From Asaia siamensis (GTDB lineage Bacteria; Pseudomonadota; Alphaproteobacteria; Acetobacterales; Acetobacteraceae): a DNA stretch of 64,000 bases. Made by a program: the position numbers and the translations under genes. Location of the stretch: the NCBI RefSeq assembly GCF_014635085.1, contig NZ_BMCH01000001.1:589151-653150 (forward strand), written 5' to 3'. Shown piece after piece: positions 39,460 to 50,378 of the stretch (position 1 is the stretch's first letter; each line of letters opens with the position of its first letter). Below the pieces are notes generated by a model. It was not told the DNA's origin. It searched no databases and saw only the letters and a program-made list of their open reading frames with translations.

Positions 39460-41124
<1,665 letters not shown>

Positions 41125-41485: not shown

Positions 41486-42394
41486 TTATTTCTGGGCTGA
41501 CTCCATCGTGCCGATAAAGGGCAGCGGGGCGCCTGCGCTCAGATAGGTCGGCATTGTGCCAGTCCAGCGATCCAGCGCTTTTTGCTGGAGCAGGGAAGGG
41601 GTCAGCGATTGAGAGACCAAAGTATTGGCCTTGGCCTGAGCCTGGGACGTCACAAGCAGGGCCTGAGCCTGACCCTGGGCTGTGGCAACAGCTGCGTCTG
41701 CCTGCGCCTTGGCCTGGACAACCTGAGCCTGAGCTGAGATCTGCGTCTGCTGCAGGGTGTATTGTGCCTGCAATGCCTGCTGCTGGGCGACCTGTTTCGC
41801 TTCGATGGCCTGCGCATAGGCGTGGGAAAAAGCGAAATTGGCCGTGTTCACCGACTCAATGCTCAGATGATAGGGCAGCAGGGATTTGATGATCAGTTCC
41901 TTGATCTGGCCATCCACAAGGTCACGCTTCGTGATCAGCTCTTCAGCGTTGTAATTGGCCGTGATGGCTTTCACGTCGTTCGACACTGTGGGCTCAATGA
42001 TACGATGGGCGAGCGTTTCGAGATTGCGGAAATCGCGGAAAAATCCCGGAGCGTCGGCAGAGGCGATGTGAAATGTGACCGAAACCGACGTGTGCACATC
42101 CTGCAGATCATGCGTTGCAGCCTGCTCATGAGAGGTAATCGTCTGAGGCTGGGTCGAAACAGAAACGACCTTTTGATAAACTGGCAGCACGATATGCAGA
42201 CCGGGTTCCAGCGCGCTGGGCTGGACAGAACCGAAATTGGTCAGAATGCCGCAATAGCCTGAAGAAATCTGATAGAATGGGTTAAGTATCGCGATAATCG
42301 CGATTGCGCCTACGGCGAAGCCACCAAATTTCAGGACGGTCGGAGAAAAGCGTGCGGGCGGCGTTGGAAAATTTATCACGTTTTTTTGCCTCAT
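41486..42394 (-). CDS. SPFH/prohibitin-like membrane protein
   Basis: 302 residues: a cytoplasmic tail, one transmembrane helix (FGGFAVGAIAIIAIL, about residues 24-38), then a band-7/prohibitin domain (VQPSALEPGLHIVLPVYQKVVSVSTQPQTI, about residues 55-85, on to about 200). A glutamine/alanine-rich coiled coil follows (about residues 195-265, QALQAQYTLQQTQISAQAQ). Prohibitin-type proteins form large rings at the inner membrane and regulate membrane proteases such as FtsH. Ring formation here is inferred from the family. No strong ribosome binding site is seen. Confidence 0.85.
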   Translation of the reverse strand: MRQKNVINFPTPPARFSPTVLKFGGFAVGAIAIIAILNPFYQISSGYCGILTNFGSVQPSALEPGLHIVLPVYQKVVSVSTQPQTITSHEQAATHDLQDVHTSVSVTFHIASADAPGFFRDFRNLETLAHRIIEPTVSNDVKAITANYNAEELITKRDLVDGQIKELIIKSLLPYHLSIESVNTANFAFSHAYAQAIEAKQVAQQQALQAQYTLQQTQISAQAQVVQAKAQADAAVATAQGQAQALLVTSQAQAKANTLVSQSLTPSLLQQKALDRWTGTMPTYLSAGAPLPFIGTMESAQK

Positions 42395-42585
42395 CAGATC
42401 AGTGACCGATCAGTTCTTGGGCAGGACGATACGCTGCCGTATCCGTTAATATGGAGGCGAAGTCTCTATACTGTCAAAAAGAATCGGAATAGACCAATTT
42501 CCCATTCTTATTGAAGCATGACTGTTCCGTTTCTTTTCTTTTTTCGGAGCTAGTCAAAAAACCTTCATGAAGAGCAACACTGTCT

Positions 42586-42668
42586 CTCGATTTCGACAAG
42601 GCGTTGCTTGCGTCAGAGGCTGCCACCGGCGCCGATGACGCGATGGCAGGGGATGAAATGGGCGATCT
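42586..42668 (-). pseudogene. Decayed duplicate of the ada 3' end
   Basis: Read on the minus strand, this 83-base stretch gives IAHFIPCHRVIGAGGSL, a stop, then RKQRLVEIER. This matches the C-terminus of the intact Ada protein encoded at 46487-47569 (IALLIPCHRVIGADGSL...WRKQRLIEIER). Compared with the intact copy (46535-46638) it has about 6 mismatches and a 21-base deletion, and the Trp codon TGG has become the stop TGA. The methyl-acceptor motif PCHRV is kept, but no promoter or N-terminal part remains. Its left boundary in gene direction coincides with the stop codon of the M48 peptidase gene. Confidence 0.88.
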
Positions 42669-44124
42669 AGTTTTTCTCCATCGCCGAGCATTGTCCGGCC
42701 AGATTATCCTCTCCCAGTCCTTCGCAGATTGCGCTGAGTTTGAGCACGGAGACGCCGTCTTTTGCCTGCCTTGCATTCTTGATGCGATAGGGCAGGAAAC
42801 CGGTATTACCCATCGCCTCTTCTTCTTTGGCCATGTACGTTTCGGCCTCTCCGGTCTTGCCTGCAGCGGACAGAGTGTTGCCCCATGCGACAGCAATCGG
42901 AAAGGTTACATCATCGCGTTCCGCAGCAGCGGCAAGCAGCTTTTCTGCCTGGTTTTTCTGGCCGGTCTGCACGGCAACCTGATAGGTCATAAGTGCATAA
43001 TAGGCACTGCCAGAGGCGGGTTGCGCAATGTGAGCAAGTGTCTGATGAGCCTGCCCCCACTGCGATTGTCCGATCAGCGATGCGGCCCGCTCCAGTTGAT
43101 CTGTCCCCTTGAGGAGAGCAGTCACGGGTGAACTGGTGACCCAGTGCTGTAGCGGCTTTCGGGCGAGAGCTACATGAGCACGAACGGGATAGGCCTGCCG
43201 CAGATAGGCGGCGAGCGCGAGTCGTCGCTCTCTGGCATGAGGATGCTGCTGCGCTACGGCTCTGAGGGCATCGACAATGGCTCCATCGAGGTTGTCGCCT
43301 GCTTTGGCCGTGAAGGTAACTGAGTCTGCGTTGAAACTCTTGCCAGTCTTTTGCTCGAGTTGTGCCTGACGCGCGACATCCTGATCTTCGGAACTGATCA
43401 ATACATCCATGACATCGGTTGCAGCACTTACGGAGTATCCTGCCCGTGCCATCAGATCGACGGCGAGTGCATCGGCTTCCTCTTCCTGCCCGCGTGACCA
43501 CGATGGAAACAGCGTCGTATCCAGAAAGGCCTTGGCACCCATCGACGACACGAGTGCTTTAGACACGGCGTCAGTTGCACCGATGCCTGCGGAGGCCCGC
43601 CCAATCACCGAACCCCACTTCATGGCACTGAAAGCGTAGTTTTTCCGTGCTTTGCTCTCACGCTGGGCTGCTGTGTGCCCCAGAAGGATGTGGGAGAGTT
43701 CGTGGGCAAGAACGAAGGCGAGCGCATCTTCCTTCTGAATTTCAGGTGTATCGTGGAAATAACGTATCAAACCGGTGTTGAGAAAGATTGCTCCCCCGAC
43801 CGAAACGTCTGAGGTAAAGGCCGTGTCGGGTGTCAGCCATACGCGTGCATCCGGACGGGGACCCGACCAGGAGGCCAGAAGGCGGTCTACGATGGCCTGA
43901 GGGTAATCCGATACCTCGGGGGCCTCGATAACACCTGAGGCAAGGGTGTTGGCCGGTGTCAGAAGGCCTTGCACAGTGGTTGACTGAGCATAATCCTGCG
44001 AAGGGTGGATCTGGTCGATCAGCCGACCGTTGGTTGGGACGCCGCCTCCGTTTCCGCTGTCGCACGCAGCAAGTGCCAGGGTTGTCAGAAGGGCAGTCGA
44101 GAGCAAGGCAGGGCGTTTCATCAT
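42667..44124 (-). CDS. M48-family zinc metallopeptidase lipoprotein with TPR-like tail
   Basis: 485 residues. The lipoprotein signal ends LALAAC (lipid cysteine about residue 21). The peptidase domain has the zinc motif HELSH (LAHELSHILLGH, about residues 140-151) and the third-ligand glutamate in QEEEADALAVDLMARAGY (about residue 213). The C-terminal 200 residues are helical and repeat-like (ARERRLALAAYL, AERDDVTFPIAVAWGNTLSAAGKTGEAETYM), as in the periplasmic BepA/YfgC-type peptidases. Those degrade or assist misassembled outer-membrane proteins. The stop overlaps the ada remnant. The upstream gene's stop lies directly against this start. Confidence 0.88.
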   Translation of the reverse strand: MMKRPALLSTALLTTLALAACDSGNGGGVPTNGRLIDQIHPSQDYAQSTTVQGLLTPANTLASGVIEAPEVSDYPQAIVDRLLASWSGPRPDARVWLTPDTAFTSDVSVGGAIFLNTGLIRYFHDTPEIQKEDALAFVLAHELSHILLGHTAAQRESKARKNYAFSAMKWGSVIGRASAGIGATDAVSKALVSSMGAKAFLDTTLFPSWSRGQEEEADALAVDLMARAGYSVSAATDVMDVLISSEDQDVARQAQLEQKTGKSFNADSVTFTAKAGDNLDGAIVDALRAVAQQHPHARERRLALAAYLRQAYPVRAHVALARKPLQHWVTSSPVTALLKGTDQLERAASLIGQSQWGQAHQTLAHIAQPASGSAYYALMTYQVAVQTGQKNQAEKLLAAAAERDDVTFPIAVAWGNTLSAAGKTGEAETYMAKEEEAMGNTGFLPYRIKNARQAKDGVSVLKLSAICEGLGEDNLAGQCSAMEKN

Positions 44125-44532
44125 TCAGCTTCCGTGGCAATTTCGACCGAGGTTGTTGGTGCTGCCACCGATTTCATCAGCAGAGGCTGCGCCTATTTGC
44201 ACGCATTGAGTGGGTGTCGGCGCGACTGCCCTGATATTGGCTTCGACAGAGTCTTCAGTGACGTAGACGAGTCCCTTATCGGTCTCGACAGCGAGCATGT
44301 CCGTTTCGGTGTCTTTGGCGACGATGCGATGTCCGGTCAGCGAAGCCGCCTCAATCTGTGTCTGGGGCAACCCATTGTGGTCGTAGGTCTGGATTGAGGG
44401 GGTGTGATAGGTCCCTGTAATGACTGGGGCGTCTGCAGCCGAGGCAACGCCGGACCAGCCCGCGCACAGGCCAAACAAGAGGGGAGAGAGAGCTGCACGT
44501 GTCAGCTTGCGGGCGAAATGCCTGTTTGACAT
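44125..44532 (-). CDS. Small secreted protein of the CHASE2/M48 cassette, unrecognised
   Basis: 135 residues from an ATG with AAGGAG six bases upstream. A signal peptide (basic RHFARKLTR, hydrophobic LSPLLFGLCAGWSG, cleavage near ASA) precedes a mature part of about 100 residues. This has a repeated-looking beta pattern (IQTYDHNGLPQTQIEAASLTGHRIVAKDTETDMLAVETDKGLVYVTEDSV) suggestive of an SH3-like or PepSY-like small barrel. Two cysteines occur in the C-terminal 30 residues and may form a disulfide. Its stop abuts the M48 start, so the two are coupled. Function unknown. Confidence 0.75.
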   Translation of the reverse strand: MSNRHFARKLTRAALSPLLFGLCAGWSGVASAADAPVITGTYHTPSIQTYDHNGLPQTQIEAASLTGHRIVAKDTETDMLAVETDKGLVYVTEDSVEANIRAVAPTPTQCVQIGAASADEIGGSTNNLGRNCHGS

Positions 44533-44608
44533 GGATATCTCCTTTCATCAGGTCTGGTGAAGAATGCTCTCGCTGCGGATACCGGCTGCTTCAAACAAAG
44601 CCGGTTCG

Positions 44609-46285
44609 CTATGCATGGCGAGAGAGCGCGCGGCGTCCTGCCGAGTAGATCGAAACTGGCAGGTCGATCACCCGGTTCAGAAGTCGACAAAGAGGCTGGA
44701 CAAACCGGTTTCGCTCCTCCTCTTCCTCGACGCCGGCTGCGAGCCAGAGCAGGAGCAGACCGATCCAGTCTGCATTGGGCCATCTGGGGCCTGCTTCGTT
44801 GAGTGCGAAACCGATGGCGGAAAGACTGGCGAGGAAGCACAACTGAGAGAGAAGGCCACGCTGCTTTTCTTCCTCTTCGGCGCGCGCCGCACGTGCCATG
44901 GGCAAGGCCCAGGCGCCGAGGAACAGGAATGTCACGAACAGCCAGATAACGAACTGATCGATCAACATGGCCCGGGTGGCGCTCTGAAAAGAAGGTATGG
45001 CAACGATAAGAAACGCGCCTAGCGCGCAGGCCACAGCCCGTTTGCGTATGCTGGTTCTGGCGTGATGCTTGTAATTATTCTGTGCGCCCAAGGCGGCAAG
45101 GACGTCGAACTGCTCTTTCTGCTGGGCTGGTTTCATGCGCATGACGAGCGCTACGCTGCAGACGAGCCAGATGAGCGCCTCAAGTAACTCGGCCTTGTCG
45201 AGACGTAACCACCCTATCTGTCCCATTTCGGGCGGCTCATGGAAATAGCGCGCGCCATAGGTCACGAGATTGTCGAAAGCCATGGCATGAGTGACGACGC
45301 CCGGAACCCGCCCAAGCAGGGGTACTATGGAATCATCGTGCTGATCGCGGATGTCAGATCCGTAAAATACCGCGCGATCGGCAAGAAGCGTGGCAAGGGC
45401 AGGGCTGCCTGACGGTGTGCCTCGGCCGCTATGCCCAAGTTGCTCTGCGCCAATTACCAGAGGATAGAAAGCGAACTGCCTTTCGCTGCCTCGAGAATGC
45501 AGAAACAGATAGGTCAGGGCGAGGCGTGAGGCTGCGGTAAGGCGGGCGCAGGGGCCTTCGTTCCAGATGGCACAGCTGTTTTGCCAGTAACCGGATTGGT
45601 CGCTGACAATATCCTGCGCGGGATCGGAGCTCAGCCCCCATCTGATAACCATCGGGCGGGTAAACGCTTCTTCCTGAACGTCTCCACAACGCGTCGACCA
45701 GGCCTGATGACACAACGTATTGTAGAGCGCCCAGGCCGGATTTACTGCAACAGGAGCTTCTCCTGTTTCCCGGGTTTCCATGCCCTCTTCCATGAGAGGG
45801 TAGCTTCCAGAGGTTTCGAGTCCATTGCTATAGACCTGAAGCGGTCTGAGGATGGGCGGAAGGGCAGGCTGCTGGTCTCCTGCTTCCCCCCTTGCAAAGA
45901 GCAGAGGCACCTTCATCGAGTGAGCTCTGGCGATAAGAGGGGCGAAACTCTCAAGTGTCTCGCCTGGAAGTTCACGCATCATGCGAAAATCGACGAAAAT
46001 CGCAGCGGGATGTGCGTCGAGTATCTGATTAAGGATGGCTATATGACGGGCGTATGAAAGAGGGAAAGCAGTCCCGAAACGTTTGAGGCTTGCGTCGTTC
46101 ACCTCAACAACGGCGACGTGTCGGTGCGTGTCAGGGCTCTGGGCGCCATAAAATGGTGTGGTAAGAGCGTTGAATAAGCCAGCCGAGGTCTGCTTCGTTG
46201 CGCTTTCAAGACCAAGCGGGTCGAGCACCTTATAGATGATGAAGAAAACCACCATCGCGATAACGTAAACAAGGCGCATACGCAT
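44609..46285 (-). CDS. CHASE2-domain sensor-like membrane protein without output domain
   Basis: 558 residues from the ATG at 46285 (GAGGGG about seven bases upstream); an ATG at 46324 is an alternative. One N-terminal helix (YVIAMVVFFIIYKVL) is followed by a periplasmic CHASE2 domain: VAVVEVNDASLKRFG (about residue 58), FPLSYARHIAILNQILDAHPAAIFVDFRM (about residue 75) and a TLLADRAVFYGSDIRDQHDDSIVPLLGRVPGVVTHAMAFDNLV closing block (about residues 310-352). About four C-terminal helices follow. No kinase, cyclase, GGDEF or other output domain is present, which is unusual for CHASE2 proteins. It precedes the small secreted protein and the M48 lipoprotein and probably signals to, or scaffolds, them. 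Confidence 0.8.
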   Translation of the reverse strand: MRMRLVYVIAMVVFFIIYKVLDPLGLESATKQTSAGLFNALTTPFYGAQSPDTHRHVAVVEVNDASLKRFGTAFPLSYARHIAILNQILDAHPAAIFVDFRMMRELPGETLESFAPLIARAHSMKVPLLFARGEAGDQQPALPPILRPLQVYSNGLETSGSYPLMEEGMETRETGEAPVAVNPAWALYNTLCHQAWSTRCGDVQEEAFTRPMVIRWGLSSDPAQDIVSDQSGYWQNSCAIWNEGPCARLTAASRLALTYLFLHSRGSERQFAFYPLVIGAEQLGHSGRGTPSGSPALATLLADRAVFYGSDIRDQHDDSIVPLLGRVPGVVTHAMAFDNLVTYGARYFHEPPEMGQIGWLRLDKAELLEALIWLVCSVALVMRMKPAQQKEQFDVLAALGAQNNYKHHARTSIRKRAVACALGAFLIVAIPSFQSATRAMLIDQFVIWLFVTFLFLGAWALPMARAARAEEEEKQRGLLSQLCFLASLSAIGFALNEAGPRWPNADWIGLLLLWLAAGVEEEEERNRFVQPLCRLLNRVIDLPVSIYSAGRRALSRHA

Positions 46286-46486
46286 CAACGCGCCCCTCGT
46301 GGAAGCCGGTCCCCGTTTTCTCATTCCACCCGCTCAAGCTCGTTGCCCCGTCAGCTCATCAGCGCGGCGTCAGGCGTATCAACATATTTTGACACGTTTC
46401 AGCAAAGCTTGGTCACGTTATATTGACGTTTGCAATAGATTCTAGCGATGGAGTCAGGAAATCGTGTGATGCGTTGCAACTTTGCC

Positions 46487-47569
46487 TCACCAAGAGCCAG
46501 TGATGTTTGGCTGTACGCATGGTCGATAGGATCGCTCGATTTCGATAAGGCGTTGCTTGCGCCAAAGGCCGCCACCATAGCCGGTGAGGCTGCCATCGGC
46601 GCCGATGACGCGATGGCAGGGGATAAGAAGGGCGATCTGATTGGCACCATTGGCGCGCGCGACGGCCCGCACGGCGCCCGGCTGGCCAAGTTGACGCGCG
46701 ATATCGGCATAGCTGCGTGTCTCCCCGACAGGGATATCGCGCAAAAGGCGATGCACCTCGCGAGTGAACCCGGTGCCCTGCGGGGCAAGAGGGGTCAGGA
46801 ACGCCGCCGAACGCCCGGCAAAATACGCTGCAAGCTCCTCACGAACCAGTTCAGTCGGGGCGGGTGTGCCGAGGCCGAGAGGGGCCTTGAGGTTTTTCTG
46901 AAGCGTCTTGAGTTCGCCGGGCAGGGCCTTGCGGTCGACGAATTCGAGGAGATGGAGATGTGTTGCGCTGGAGACGGCAATCATGTCACCCAGCGATGTC
47001 GGGACCCAGCTTGCCTGCAGCAAGCCGCCCGGCTTGAGGCTGGCGGGCGCAGCTCCCAGAAGTCTCGAAAAAGCCTCCCTGAAGGCGCTGGGGGAGGCAA
47101 AGCCTGAGTCGAGCTGGGCCTCTATGACCCGCTCACCCTCGGTAAGGGACAAGAAGCCCTCTCGCAGGCGGTACTGCCGTGCCATGTCGAGAAACGTCAT
47201 GTCGAAATAGCGCTTGAAGCTCCGTCGAATTGTAGACAGATCATAGCCAAGCGCAGTGACGTCGCTTTCCTTCCAGCGTCGCCCCGGTTCGGCCTCCAGC
47301 AGGGCGAGCAGCCGTGCGACGGCTGGATCATTGGCGGTGGCGCTGCGGAGCGGATGGCATCTCTTGCAGGCCCGAAATCCGGCTTCGAGGCATTCCCGCA
47401 CGCTGGATCGAAAAACGCAGTTGGTGGAGAGCGGCTTGCGCGCCGGGCAGGTCAGGCGACAGAAAATACCGGTTGTGCCAACACAGACAAACACGCTCCC
47501 GTCGTAACGCGCATCGCGAGCGACAAGGGCATCATAGAGCGTGTCATGGGAGGGGAGAGGGAAGAGCAT
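46487..47569 (-). CDS. ada: Bifunctional Ada: DNA repair methyltransferase and transcriptional activator
   Basis: 360 residues with all Ada parts. The N-terminal zinc/methyl-phosphotriester domain has Cys37, Cys41, Cys68 and Cys71 (FCRLTCPARKP, FRACKRCHPL). An AraC-type DNA-binding domain covers about residues 80-175 (RSFKRYFDMTFLDMARQYRL, ASPSAFREAFSRLLG). The O6-methylguanine methyltransferase domain has its acceptor Cys318 in IPCHRVIGADGSL. GGGLWRKQRLIEIER closes the fold. On methylation it activates its own and other repair genes. The 3' end is duplicated at 42586-42668. Confidence 0.96.
   Translation of the reverse strand: MLFPLPSHDTLYDALVARDARYDGSVFVCVGTTGIFCRLTCPARKPLSTNCVFRSSVRECLEAGFRACKRCHPLRSATANDPAVARLLALLEAEPGRRWKESDVTALGYDLSTIRRSFKRYFDMTFLDMARQYRLREGFLSLTEGERVIEAQLDSGFASPSAFREAFSRLLGAAPASLKPGGLLQASWVPTSLGDMIAVSSATHLHLLEFVDRKALPGELKTLQKNLKAPLGLGTPAPTELVREELAAYFAGRSAAFLTPLAPQGTGFTREVHRLLRDIPVGETRSYADIARQLGQPGAVRAVARANGANQIALLIPCHRVIGADGSLTGYGGGLWRKQRLIEIERSYRPCVQPNITGSW
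46535..46638. repeat. Intact copy of the ada-derived direct repeat
   Basis: 104 bases inside the 3' end of ada, matched by the 83-base decayed copy at 42586-42668 in the same orientation. The two copies bracket the CHASE2 / small protein / M48 genes. Outside these limits the flanking sequences differ. Confidence 0.85.
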
Positions 47570-47699: not shown

Positions 47700-49376
47700 T
47701 CAGTTCGTCACGGGTGGCCGCGCGTTGGTCTTGGCCACTTCCTTGCCCCAGCGTACCAGATCGTCGGTGCAATCCTCACGGTCGAGGGTGCATTCGATCA
47801 GGGTCGGGCCGCGCCGGTTCTGCCTTGCCTTGTCGATCGCTTCTGCAAGCTCGCCAGCCGTATTGGCCCTGAGGCCCAGCCCGTGGCCTTCAGACGCATT
47901 GAAGGCATTGATGAGACCCGCATAATCCCAGTTCTGAATATAATTATACGGACCATCATGGATCTTGATCTCGATGACATAGCCCCGGTTGTTGATCAGG
48001 AAAATAATGACCGGCAGCTCGTAACGGATCATCTGCGCTACTTCCTGCGCGGTCAGCTGGAATGACCCGTCTCCCACCATCACGATATGCTGCCGCTCTG
48101 GCGAGCCAGTAGCATTGCCAAAGGCCGAGGGGACCGACCACCCGATATGGCCCCATTGCATTTCGAGTTCGACACGGGCCTTGGCGGGCAGGTGCAAACG
48201 CACGGCGTTGAACCAGCTATCGCCGGTCTCTGCTGTCAGCGTTGTATCAGCCGTCACAAGAGCCCCGATCTGACGCATCATCTCGTCATTGGTCAGCTTG
48301 GCCTCCGCGGGCAGCGGTGTAGAAACTGGCAGAGAGAGGGCGGAGTTGTCGGCGCTCAGGGGGCGTCGTGGCGCCTGCTCGCTCAGGGCGGTCACGAACG
48401 AGCGCAGATCGACACCGCCGAAGTGTGTTCCAGCAACGACCACATCGTCAGGGTTGACCAGAGCGACTTTCTCGCCTCTGGGCCATGCTTCCCAGCCAAC
48501 GGTTGAATAATCATTGAATACCGGGCCGAGGCATAGAATGGCATCCGCGTTGTCGATGAGCGCTTCTGCACCGGGCGAACTGACATTGCCCCAGTAGACG
48601 CCGCGATATCCGGGGTGGTCTTCGGGAAAAAATCCCTTCGCTGCCGCCGTGATGGTCACGGCACATCCAAGGCGATCTGCCAGTTTCACCGCTGCATCAA
48701 GGCCATGGGCGGCGCGCAGCTTGCTCCCGACAAGAATGACAACCTGTTCGCGTTTTTCCAGAAAGGACAAGGTCGCTGCGACTGCCTGATCGAGCGTCGT
48801 ATTGCAGGCAGGCTTGCGAGGCAGAAGCGCCTCTATGGGGCCGGGTTCGGGGCATTCGAGATCGGCCACGTTGCACGGAATTTCGAGATAGACCGGCTTG
48901 CTCAGGGCAAGGGCACGCTCGATCACATGATCGATTTTGGCAGGGGCGTCTTCGGCAGAAAACAGCCGCTCGGCGGCAACCGTGACATGGCGGACCATCT
49001 CGAACTGATAGCCATAATCGGACGTGCCGAGAGTATGGTGCAGTATCCGGCCTGTGCCATGGTCATTTGTATTGGGGGCGCCTGAGACGAGAATTACGGG
49101 CAGGTTTTCAGCGTGGGCGCCACCAAGCGCGTTGATGGCAGACAGGGCGCCGACGCTGAAGGTCACGACTGCGCAGGCTGCGCCTTTCGCCCGTGCATAG
49201 CCTTCGGCTGCGAAGCCGCAATTCAGCTCGTTGCAGCAATAGACCTGTTCCAGCCCGTCCTGAGCCAGAAGCTGGTCGAGAAGGACGAGATTGTAGTCTC
49301 CCGCGACAGCAAAGTGATGGTCGACGCCGATCTGTGTCAGGCGTTTTGCGAGATAGCCACCGATAGTCGTGCTCAT
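47700..49376 (-). CDS. pdc: Pyruvate decarboxylase
   Basis: Pdc is the ThDP- and Mg-dependent enzyme converting pyruvate to acetaldehyde and CO2; in acetic acid bacteria it feeds acetaldehyde to acetate formation during growth on lactate or pyruvate. 558 residues, the bacterial Pdc length. It starts [36 protein letters not shown]; the activating glutamate is in [17 protein letters not shown] (about E50). HH in GRILHHTLG (about residue 113) is the catalytic histidine pair. The ThDP motif runs from GDGSFQ to NNRGY (about residues 435-466). The start at 49376 is fixed by the family N-terminus. A LysR gene is divergent, 96 bases away. Confidence 0.97.
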
Positions 49377-49448
49377 GGAAGTCAGGCGTCCTTCTGGTGT
49401 GTGTCGATTGTGTCGTAGTTTGTCCTTGGTCCTGTTCTGCGTCCAATA

Positions 49449-49470
49449 TATGTTTGGGCCCTCTTTCATA
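49449..49470. promoter_or_regulatory. Candidate LysR operator in the pdc intergenic region
   Basis: TATG (49449-49452) and CATA (49467-49470) form an interrupted palindrome around a central GGGCCC, just upstream of the LysR start and about 75 bases upstream of pdc. LysR-type regulators usually bind such A/T-rich dyads in the divergent promoter. Confidence 0.35.
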
Positions 49471-49472
49471 CT

Positions 49473-50378
49473 TTGAGGATATGGATCATCGACCTGAGAC
49501 GTTGGCGCTATCTGGTGACAATTGCCGAGGCCGGCAGTTTCACGCGCGCGGCCGAACTGCTGCATATGGAACAACCGCCGCTCAGCCAGCAGATCAAGGC
49601 GATGGAGCGCGAGCTCGGTCTTGTGCTCTTCGTGCGGTCACGATCAGGTGCAGTGCCAACCGAGGCCGGGGCCGCGCTGGTCGAGCGGGCCCGGGTCCTG
49701 ATCGGGCTTGAGCGTGAGGTCACCTCACTGGCGCGGGGGCTGTCACGCGGCGAGCAGGGCAGGCTGCGCATCGGTCTTGCGGGCGCGGTTTCCCTTCTGC
49801 CTCTGGTGCCGGGCGCAATACGGGCATTTCGCGAGCGCTGGCCGGATGTCATCATTACGCTTGAGGAAAGCAATACGCCTGCTCTGTGTGACGCGCTTCA
49901 TGACCGACGCATCGACGTTGCGATCGTGCGCCCTCCGGCGCCCGTCCAGACACTCATCGTGCGCCCCCTGCTTGAGGAAGCGACGGTGATCGCGCTCCCG
50001 AAGGGCCATGCAGAAGCCTCTCACCGGGGTGTCAGGCTTGAGGCCTTGCGGGATGAACCGATGATCCTGTTCGAGCGTGCGCTCGGTCCGGGGTTCTATG
50101 ACGCGATTATCATGGCCTGCGGTCACGCGGGTTTCGTGCCGCATATAGGCCAGTCGGCACCGCAGATCATCGCGACGGTTTCTCTCGTCGCTGCGGGGCT
50201 GGGTGTCTCGATCGTGCCGCAATGTCTCAGCCAGATCCATGCAGAGGGGGTGAGTTATCACCCGATCATAGGGTCTGCGCCCAAGGCAGCGCTTGCTGTG
50301 GCGATGATCGATGGCCCGGTTTCCCTTCCTGTGCAGCGCTTCGAGACAATGCTCAGAGAGGCAGCCGCTGCTTTGTGA
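49473..50378 (+). CDS. LysR-type regulator divergent from pdc
   Basis: 301 residues: N-terminal winged helix ([42 protein letters not shown], about residues 8-50) and a C-terminal periplasmic-binding-like effector domain. The start is uncertain: no ATG fits the frame, so the TTG at 49473 is proposed without a good ribosome binding site. Divergent placement suggests control of pdc, perhaps responding to pyruvate or lactate; that is inference. Confidence 0.88.

Follow-up and report, generated by a model that had tools for sequence, protein, structure and literature searches.

A three-gene CHASE2/M48 operon beside ada in Asaia siamensis, probably imported through homology in the ada 3' end

In the window, i.e., the whole analysed stretch of 64,000 nucleotides from Asaia siamensis, three genes encoding a CHASE2-domain membrane protein, a small secreted protein and an M48 metalloprotease lipoprotein are enclosed between the 3' end of an intact ada gene and a second, decayed copy of that end. 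Comparison of both junctions with other Asaia genomes suggests that this module was probably imported by RecA-type recombination anchored in the ada 3' end on one side and by an illegitimate join at the M48 stop codon on the other. The mechanism is of an already known kind; the operon is uncharacterised. An earlier note, made from the letters of this DNA, had described the duplicated gene end and had proposed either insertion of an element that rebuilds the 3' end of a gene or a tandem duplication followed by deletion. The features of the locus are as follows.

41486-42394, minus strand: SPFH/Band 7 gene, the ancestral ada neighbour in module-free species (PF01145; synteny in L031-L036)
42395-42585, minus strand: original ada tail (ERQCCSS*), with the spacer between ada and SPFH, from the module-free ancestor (z = 13.5 to G006 and G007)
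42583-42668, minus strand: decayed and displaced 3' end of ada, 86 nt, with a 21-nt deletion and a W-to-stop change
42667-44124, minus strand: M48 metalloprotease lipoprotein, 485 aa, HELSH motif, BepA-like (PF01435, E 3.4e-19)
44125-44532, minus strand: small secreted protein, 135 aa, with 2 invariant cysteines in an 11-homolog alignment
44609-46324, minus strand: CHASE2-domain membrane protein, 571 aa, without a cytoplasmic output domain (PF05226, E 1.6e-10, sole Pfam match)
46325-46535, minus strand: ada C-terminal tail and ada-CHASE2 spacer, which travel with the module (z = 22 to G001, 16.5 to G008)
46487-47569, minus strand: intact ada, 360 aa (Pfam: AdaA Zn-binding, AraC HTH and methyltransferase domains)
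46532-46638, minus strand: intact repeat copy, ada codons for ...PCHRVIGADGSLTGYGGGLWRKQRLIEIER (blastn E 6.8e-19 to the remnant)

The duplicated ada end and the locus across Asaia

The decayed ada copy reported in the earlier note is real, since it was found by blastn within the window (42583-42668 against 46532-46638, same strand, E = 6.8e-19) and the same pair was returned by a repeat search of the window. The copies lie in direct orientation 3.95 kb apart, enclose exactly three genes, and differ by 7 mismatches over 86 nt and by one 21-nt gap, a deletion in the remnant that sits between GCCT repeats; their longest perfect run is 28 nt. Over the 83 nt that had been compared in the earlier note, 6 mismatches give an identity of 92.8%, in agreement with its figure of about 93 percent. 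In the ada frame the remnant reads IAHFIPCHRVIGAGGSL*RKQRLVEIERQCCSS* and is therefore dead, and in the part shared with the intact copy its changes are mostly protein-damaging (L to H, D to G, W to stop and I to V). It was also recovered by a genome-wide ada search (G000:C1:631730-631873, E 2.1e-5, with TGA and TAG inside). An origin from an ogt gene, which the earlier note had named as an outcome that would speak against it, does not fit these data; the remnant matches this ada with an E value of 5e-18, far better than any other ada gene tested, and the separate ogt gene of the window genome is only 45% identical to ada at the protein level. The repeat begins within the M48 stop codon (42667-42669), and its border is therefore exactly the end of the M48 gene. 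Past the ATCGAG codons the two ada copies are fully unlike, and each resembles a different set of relatives.

Nine Asaia genomes were compared, i.e., the window genome and eight relatives, which include A. platycodi JCM 25414 (G006), A. prunellae JCM 25354 (G007), Asaia sp. W19 (G008) and A. bogorensis GD-01 (G003). Six of these eight relatives lack the module, and the contrary pattern that the earlier note had considered, with the module in all relatives and no remnant, is not found. The search for empty sites that it had proposed was informative: ada lies directly beside SPFH, which is followed by groEL, in five of the six module-free relatives (A. platycodi, A. prunellae, A. bogorensis and two more), and a module-free locus of the recipient type is thus present in close relatives of the window genome (L031, L032). 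In G005, ada abuts groEL and SPFH is missing (L037:10498-10576), a further rearrangement of the same interval.

The other two relatives, Asaia sp. W19 and G001, carry the module, in the slot that it has in the window, and this slot is common to three lineages. The gene order is lysR2-ada-module-SPFH-groEL in Asaia sp. W19, and lysR2, a decayed ada, the module, an IS-like stretch and groEL in G001. A search downstream of M48 found no ada repeat in either genome. What is left of ada in G001 is a decayed stretch upstream of CHASE2 in which a (GGCTAT)n repeat has expanded (L084:10522-11246); no intact ada was found in this genome, which is 88% complete. The IS-transposase-like stretch of G001 lies between M48 and groEL (L084:6016-6876), where most other species have SPFH.

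By rpoB, parE and gyrB, the closest relative of the window genome is A. platycodi (91.5% over 7.3 kb). Between ada and lysR2, the window carries pdc, encoding pyruvate decarboxylase, and a lysR gene (47700-50378); pdc and this lysR1 were found beside ada only in the window genome, A. platycodi and A. prunellae. The groEL gene (39481-41124) is nearer to the bogorensis group, with 97.0% identity to G004 versus 94.0% to A. platycodi, which contradicts parE and gyrB and is another sign of recombination near the ada locus.

Ancestry of the two junctions and a proposed mechanism

The intact ada tail, from about 46535 to the stop codon, is of the module-carrier type and resembles only those of G001 and Asaia sp. 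W19. In local alignments, this tail together with the ada-CHASE2 spacer gave z scores of 22 to G001 and 16.5 to Asaia sp. W19, and background level against the six module-free species. By comparison, the remnant tail with its spacer to SPFH gave z = 13.5 to A. platycodi and A. prunellae, with all other species at background; this match is short at the tail itself and strongest nearer SPFH, in the sequence upstream of that gene. At clade-separating sites the remnant agrees with the intact copy as far as alignment column 1034; from column 1035 on, its state is that of platycodi/prunellae. Since the tails and spacers belong to different lineages, the remnant is the end that ada had originally in the module-free lineage, now displaced, and the tail of the working ada is that of the module lineage. 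A mosaic test along ada indicated a platycodi-like middle with other-like ends (permutation p 0.01); as ancestral states may have been retained at these ends, the test was not used as proof.

Tandem duplication of ada and the three genes, followed by deletion, would account for the direct orientation and high identity of the copies, but the sequences past them are unrelated, and each is orthologous to the ada-downstream region of a different lineage. This second proposal of the earlier note is in its simple form refuted by the differing tails, and we give almost no credence to any version of it.

The reading that we favour involves a module-free Asaia chromosome, with ada next to SPFH, and DNA of a module-carrying Asaia in the order ada-CHASE2-small protein gene-M48. 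On the first side, a homologous join in the ada 3' end would keep ada whole and would give it the last codons of the carrier and the carrier's spacer to CHASE2. On the second side, the M48 stop codon would have been joined illegitimately to a point in the shared ada sequence 107 nt short of its end, so that the ada end of the recipient would be left stranded before SPFH as a pseudogene fragment. Both junctions have the structure expected from such joins: the tail switches at column 1035, after shared ada sequence, and the sequence downstream of M48 in the other carriers (AACTGA...) has no shared run with ada at that point, where no microhomology could be demonstrated. The simplest route would be circularisation of the fragment after entry and a single crossover in ada; a second would be homology-facilitated illegitimate recombination (HFIR) of a linear fragment, and a site-specific recombinase would not be required. 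We infer a gain, by way of a circular or a linear intermediate, from an unsampled donor, which would be an Asaia whose ada has the tail ...ERSYRPCVQPNITGSW. Recent transfer directly from the species of G001 is ruled out, as the module genes are only 74-77% identical to those of this nearest carrier.

Integrative islands target tRNA genes or other gene ends, and the architecture observed here, with a rebuilt gene end, a displaced old end and direct repeats at the two borders, is classical for a site-specific element that has since lost its integrase. Against this, no integrase is visible in the segment, as the earlier note had remarked, and no transposase either; it contains the CHASE2, small protein and M48 genes only, and beside it lie ada, pdc, SPFH and groESL. 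Moreover, the start of the repeat is in the M48 stop codon, not at an att site outside the cargo, an att-type repeat is missing in the two other carriers, where no ada match lies downstream of M48, and a search for the operon elsewhere placed it at unrelated loci in other genera. A search for plasmid matches to the CHASE2 protein found none. The sole tRNA of the window is at 28 kb, far from the module. An integrative element is thus very unlikely, and of the first proposal in the earlier note the inserted DNA, the rebuilt ada end and the displaced old end stand, whereas the self-contained mobile element does not.

Age of the join and exchange at the ada-SPFH slot

Dead remnant and intact ada differ at 6 positions in 83 nt (about 7%), whereas ada of the window genome and of A. 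platycodi shows 53% divergence at fourfold sites, suggesting that the join is much younger than the split between these species and in line with the fairly recent event proposed earlier. Most of the changes are on the remnant side, which is what decay following the event would produce. Gene conversion could, however, have kept the copies alike, and the young age is given with this qualification.

These values bear on the possibility that the arrangement ada-module-remnant was already present in the ancestor of the window strain, A. platycodi and A. prunellae, and that recombination between the ada copies later deleted the module in both sisters, leaving the remnant tail on their ada. Such a history predicts the same tail and spacer matches, and is consistent with the presence of one slot in three deep lineages and with a module divergence that ordinary genes also show. 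At fourfold sites, the module of the window genome is indeed no less diverged from that of G001 (JC about 0.9) than is ordinary for ada in the genus, and the module sequence alone therefore does not force a transfer from outside the lineage. The remnant would, however, have to predate the split and still be only 7% different from the intact copy, against 53% at ada fourfold sites, which would need repeated gene conversion; a join younger than the split argues against a remnant inherited by both and then lost with the module in the sisters. A polymorphic ancestor, with module loss in both sisters, retains some small probability. Taking both sides into consideration, ancient presence and loss is improbable, and import into a module-free chromosome is preferred.

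A second carrier shows recombination-like breakpoints. Asaia sp. W19 and its sister G004 are about 97% identical through lysR2 and the start of ada; at about 270 nt into ada the identity drops, to 78-91%; the first 150 nt of SPFH still stand at about 85%, after which values of 96-99% are regained. Since the ada tail and SPFH upstream sequence of G004 are common to G002 and G003, which are likewise module-free, Asaia sp. W19 is the changed one. By these identity profiles, its module lies within a segment swapped by homologous recombination, with borders inside ada and SPFH, and the module can thus move via homologous recombination in flanking genes.

Use of the ada-SPFH slot on two or more occasions in the genus is probable. 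More tentatively, the interval could be a recurrent exchange slot in Asaia, in which the module would always be accompanied by its own ada tail and would enter and leave via recombination in flanking genes, the end of a housekeeping gene being a standing, recombinase-free anchor. If so, it would resemble Rhs loci or T6SS tips, but for an envelope-protease operon.

The three-gene operon and comparison with known systems

The CHASE2 protein was found in 13 of the 397 genomes of the family (6 of 102 genera), and each of the 13 has an M48 gene on the same strand at a distance of no more than about 1 kb; the pair also occurs in two genomes of another family. Operon neighbours vary between genera. 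By its distribution and gene order, the module is a conserved, patchy operon. The M48 protein scores above the cut-off of PF01435, its zinc residues (H141, E142, H145, E214 and D218) are invariant in 11 homologs, and its best match among solved structures is BepA (PDB 6ait, E 3.5e-12). It resembles this M48 beta-barrel assembly-enhancing protease over the protease and part of the repeat region, but its score with the BepA equivalog model is only 62.6 bits, far under the cut-off of 570, and its CHASE2 and small-protein partners are its own. A Pfam search with the small secreted protein gave no match; its predicted structure, only partly confident, has its best PDB match at E 0.08, and matches are mostly SH3-like barrels, suggesting a possible SH3-like beta domain. 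These features together point to a putative envelope protein-quality or sensing operon. A defence-system role was considered and is unsupported, as PADLOC gives only a marginal Lit match (E 0.004). Base composition gave no strong foreign signal, with G+C mostly 55-59% in the module versus 58-63% around it. A block of the ada-CHASE2 spacer (46370-46440, GTCAAnnnAACGTGACnAA..TTT) is kept in all three Asaia carriers and may represent the operon promoter or a regulator site. In the literature searched, a CHASE2 domain was not paired with a metalloprotease in any paper, and the module represents an undescribed three-gene envelope operon that is strictly conserved, and rare and patchy, in acetic acid bacteria.

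With its empty sites and second carrier, the locus is a clean natural example of the way in which accessory operons can pass from one bacterial species to another in the absence of integrases, and it retains a datable scar. The integrative elements that rebuild 3' ends share with it the intact rebuilt gene and the displaced 3' remnant as a direct repeat; unlike these, the Asaia module has no integrase, and no att repeat is conserved in other carriers. A closer parallel to the proposed import is found in an E. coli lacZ test of incoming DNA with one homologous end, in which 56 of 60 recombinants carried partial target duplications (109-950 bp in the 14 sequenced) explained by circularisation and a single crossover, and 4 recombinants were explained by homology-facilitated illegitimate recombination (PMC3240628). 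The Asaia locus resembles these products in its single homologous anchor and in the direct partial duplication of the target gene, which is 107 bp in Asaia, but they come from a laboratory assay, whereas the Asaia event is natural, older and inferred from sequence. In Vibrio cholerae, HFIR has been described at T6SS effector-immunity arrays and Rhs loci, with orphan (displaced) gene ends (PMC5361080). There, as in Asaia, a constant upstream anchor is followed by a new downstream module, and the old downstream part is pushed further down; in Asaia, by contrast, the anchor is a DNA-repair gene kept intact, no toxin or immunity genes are present and the displaced piece is dead.
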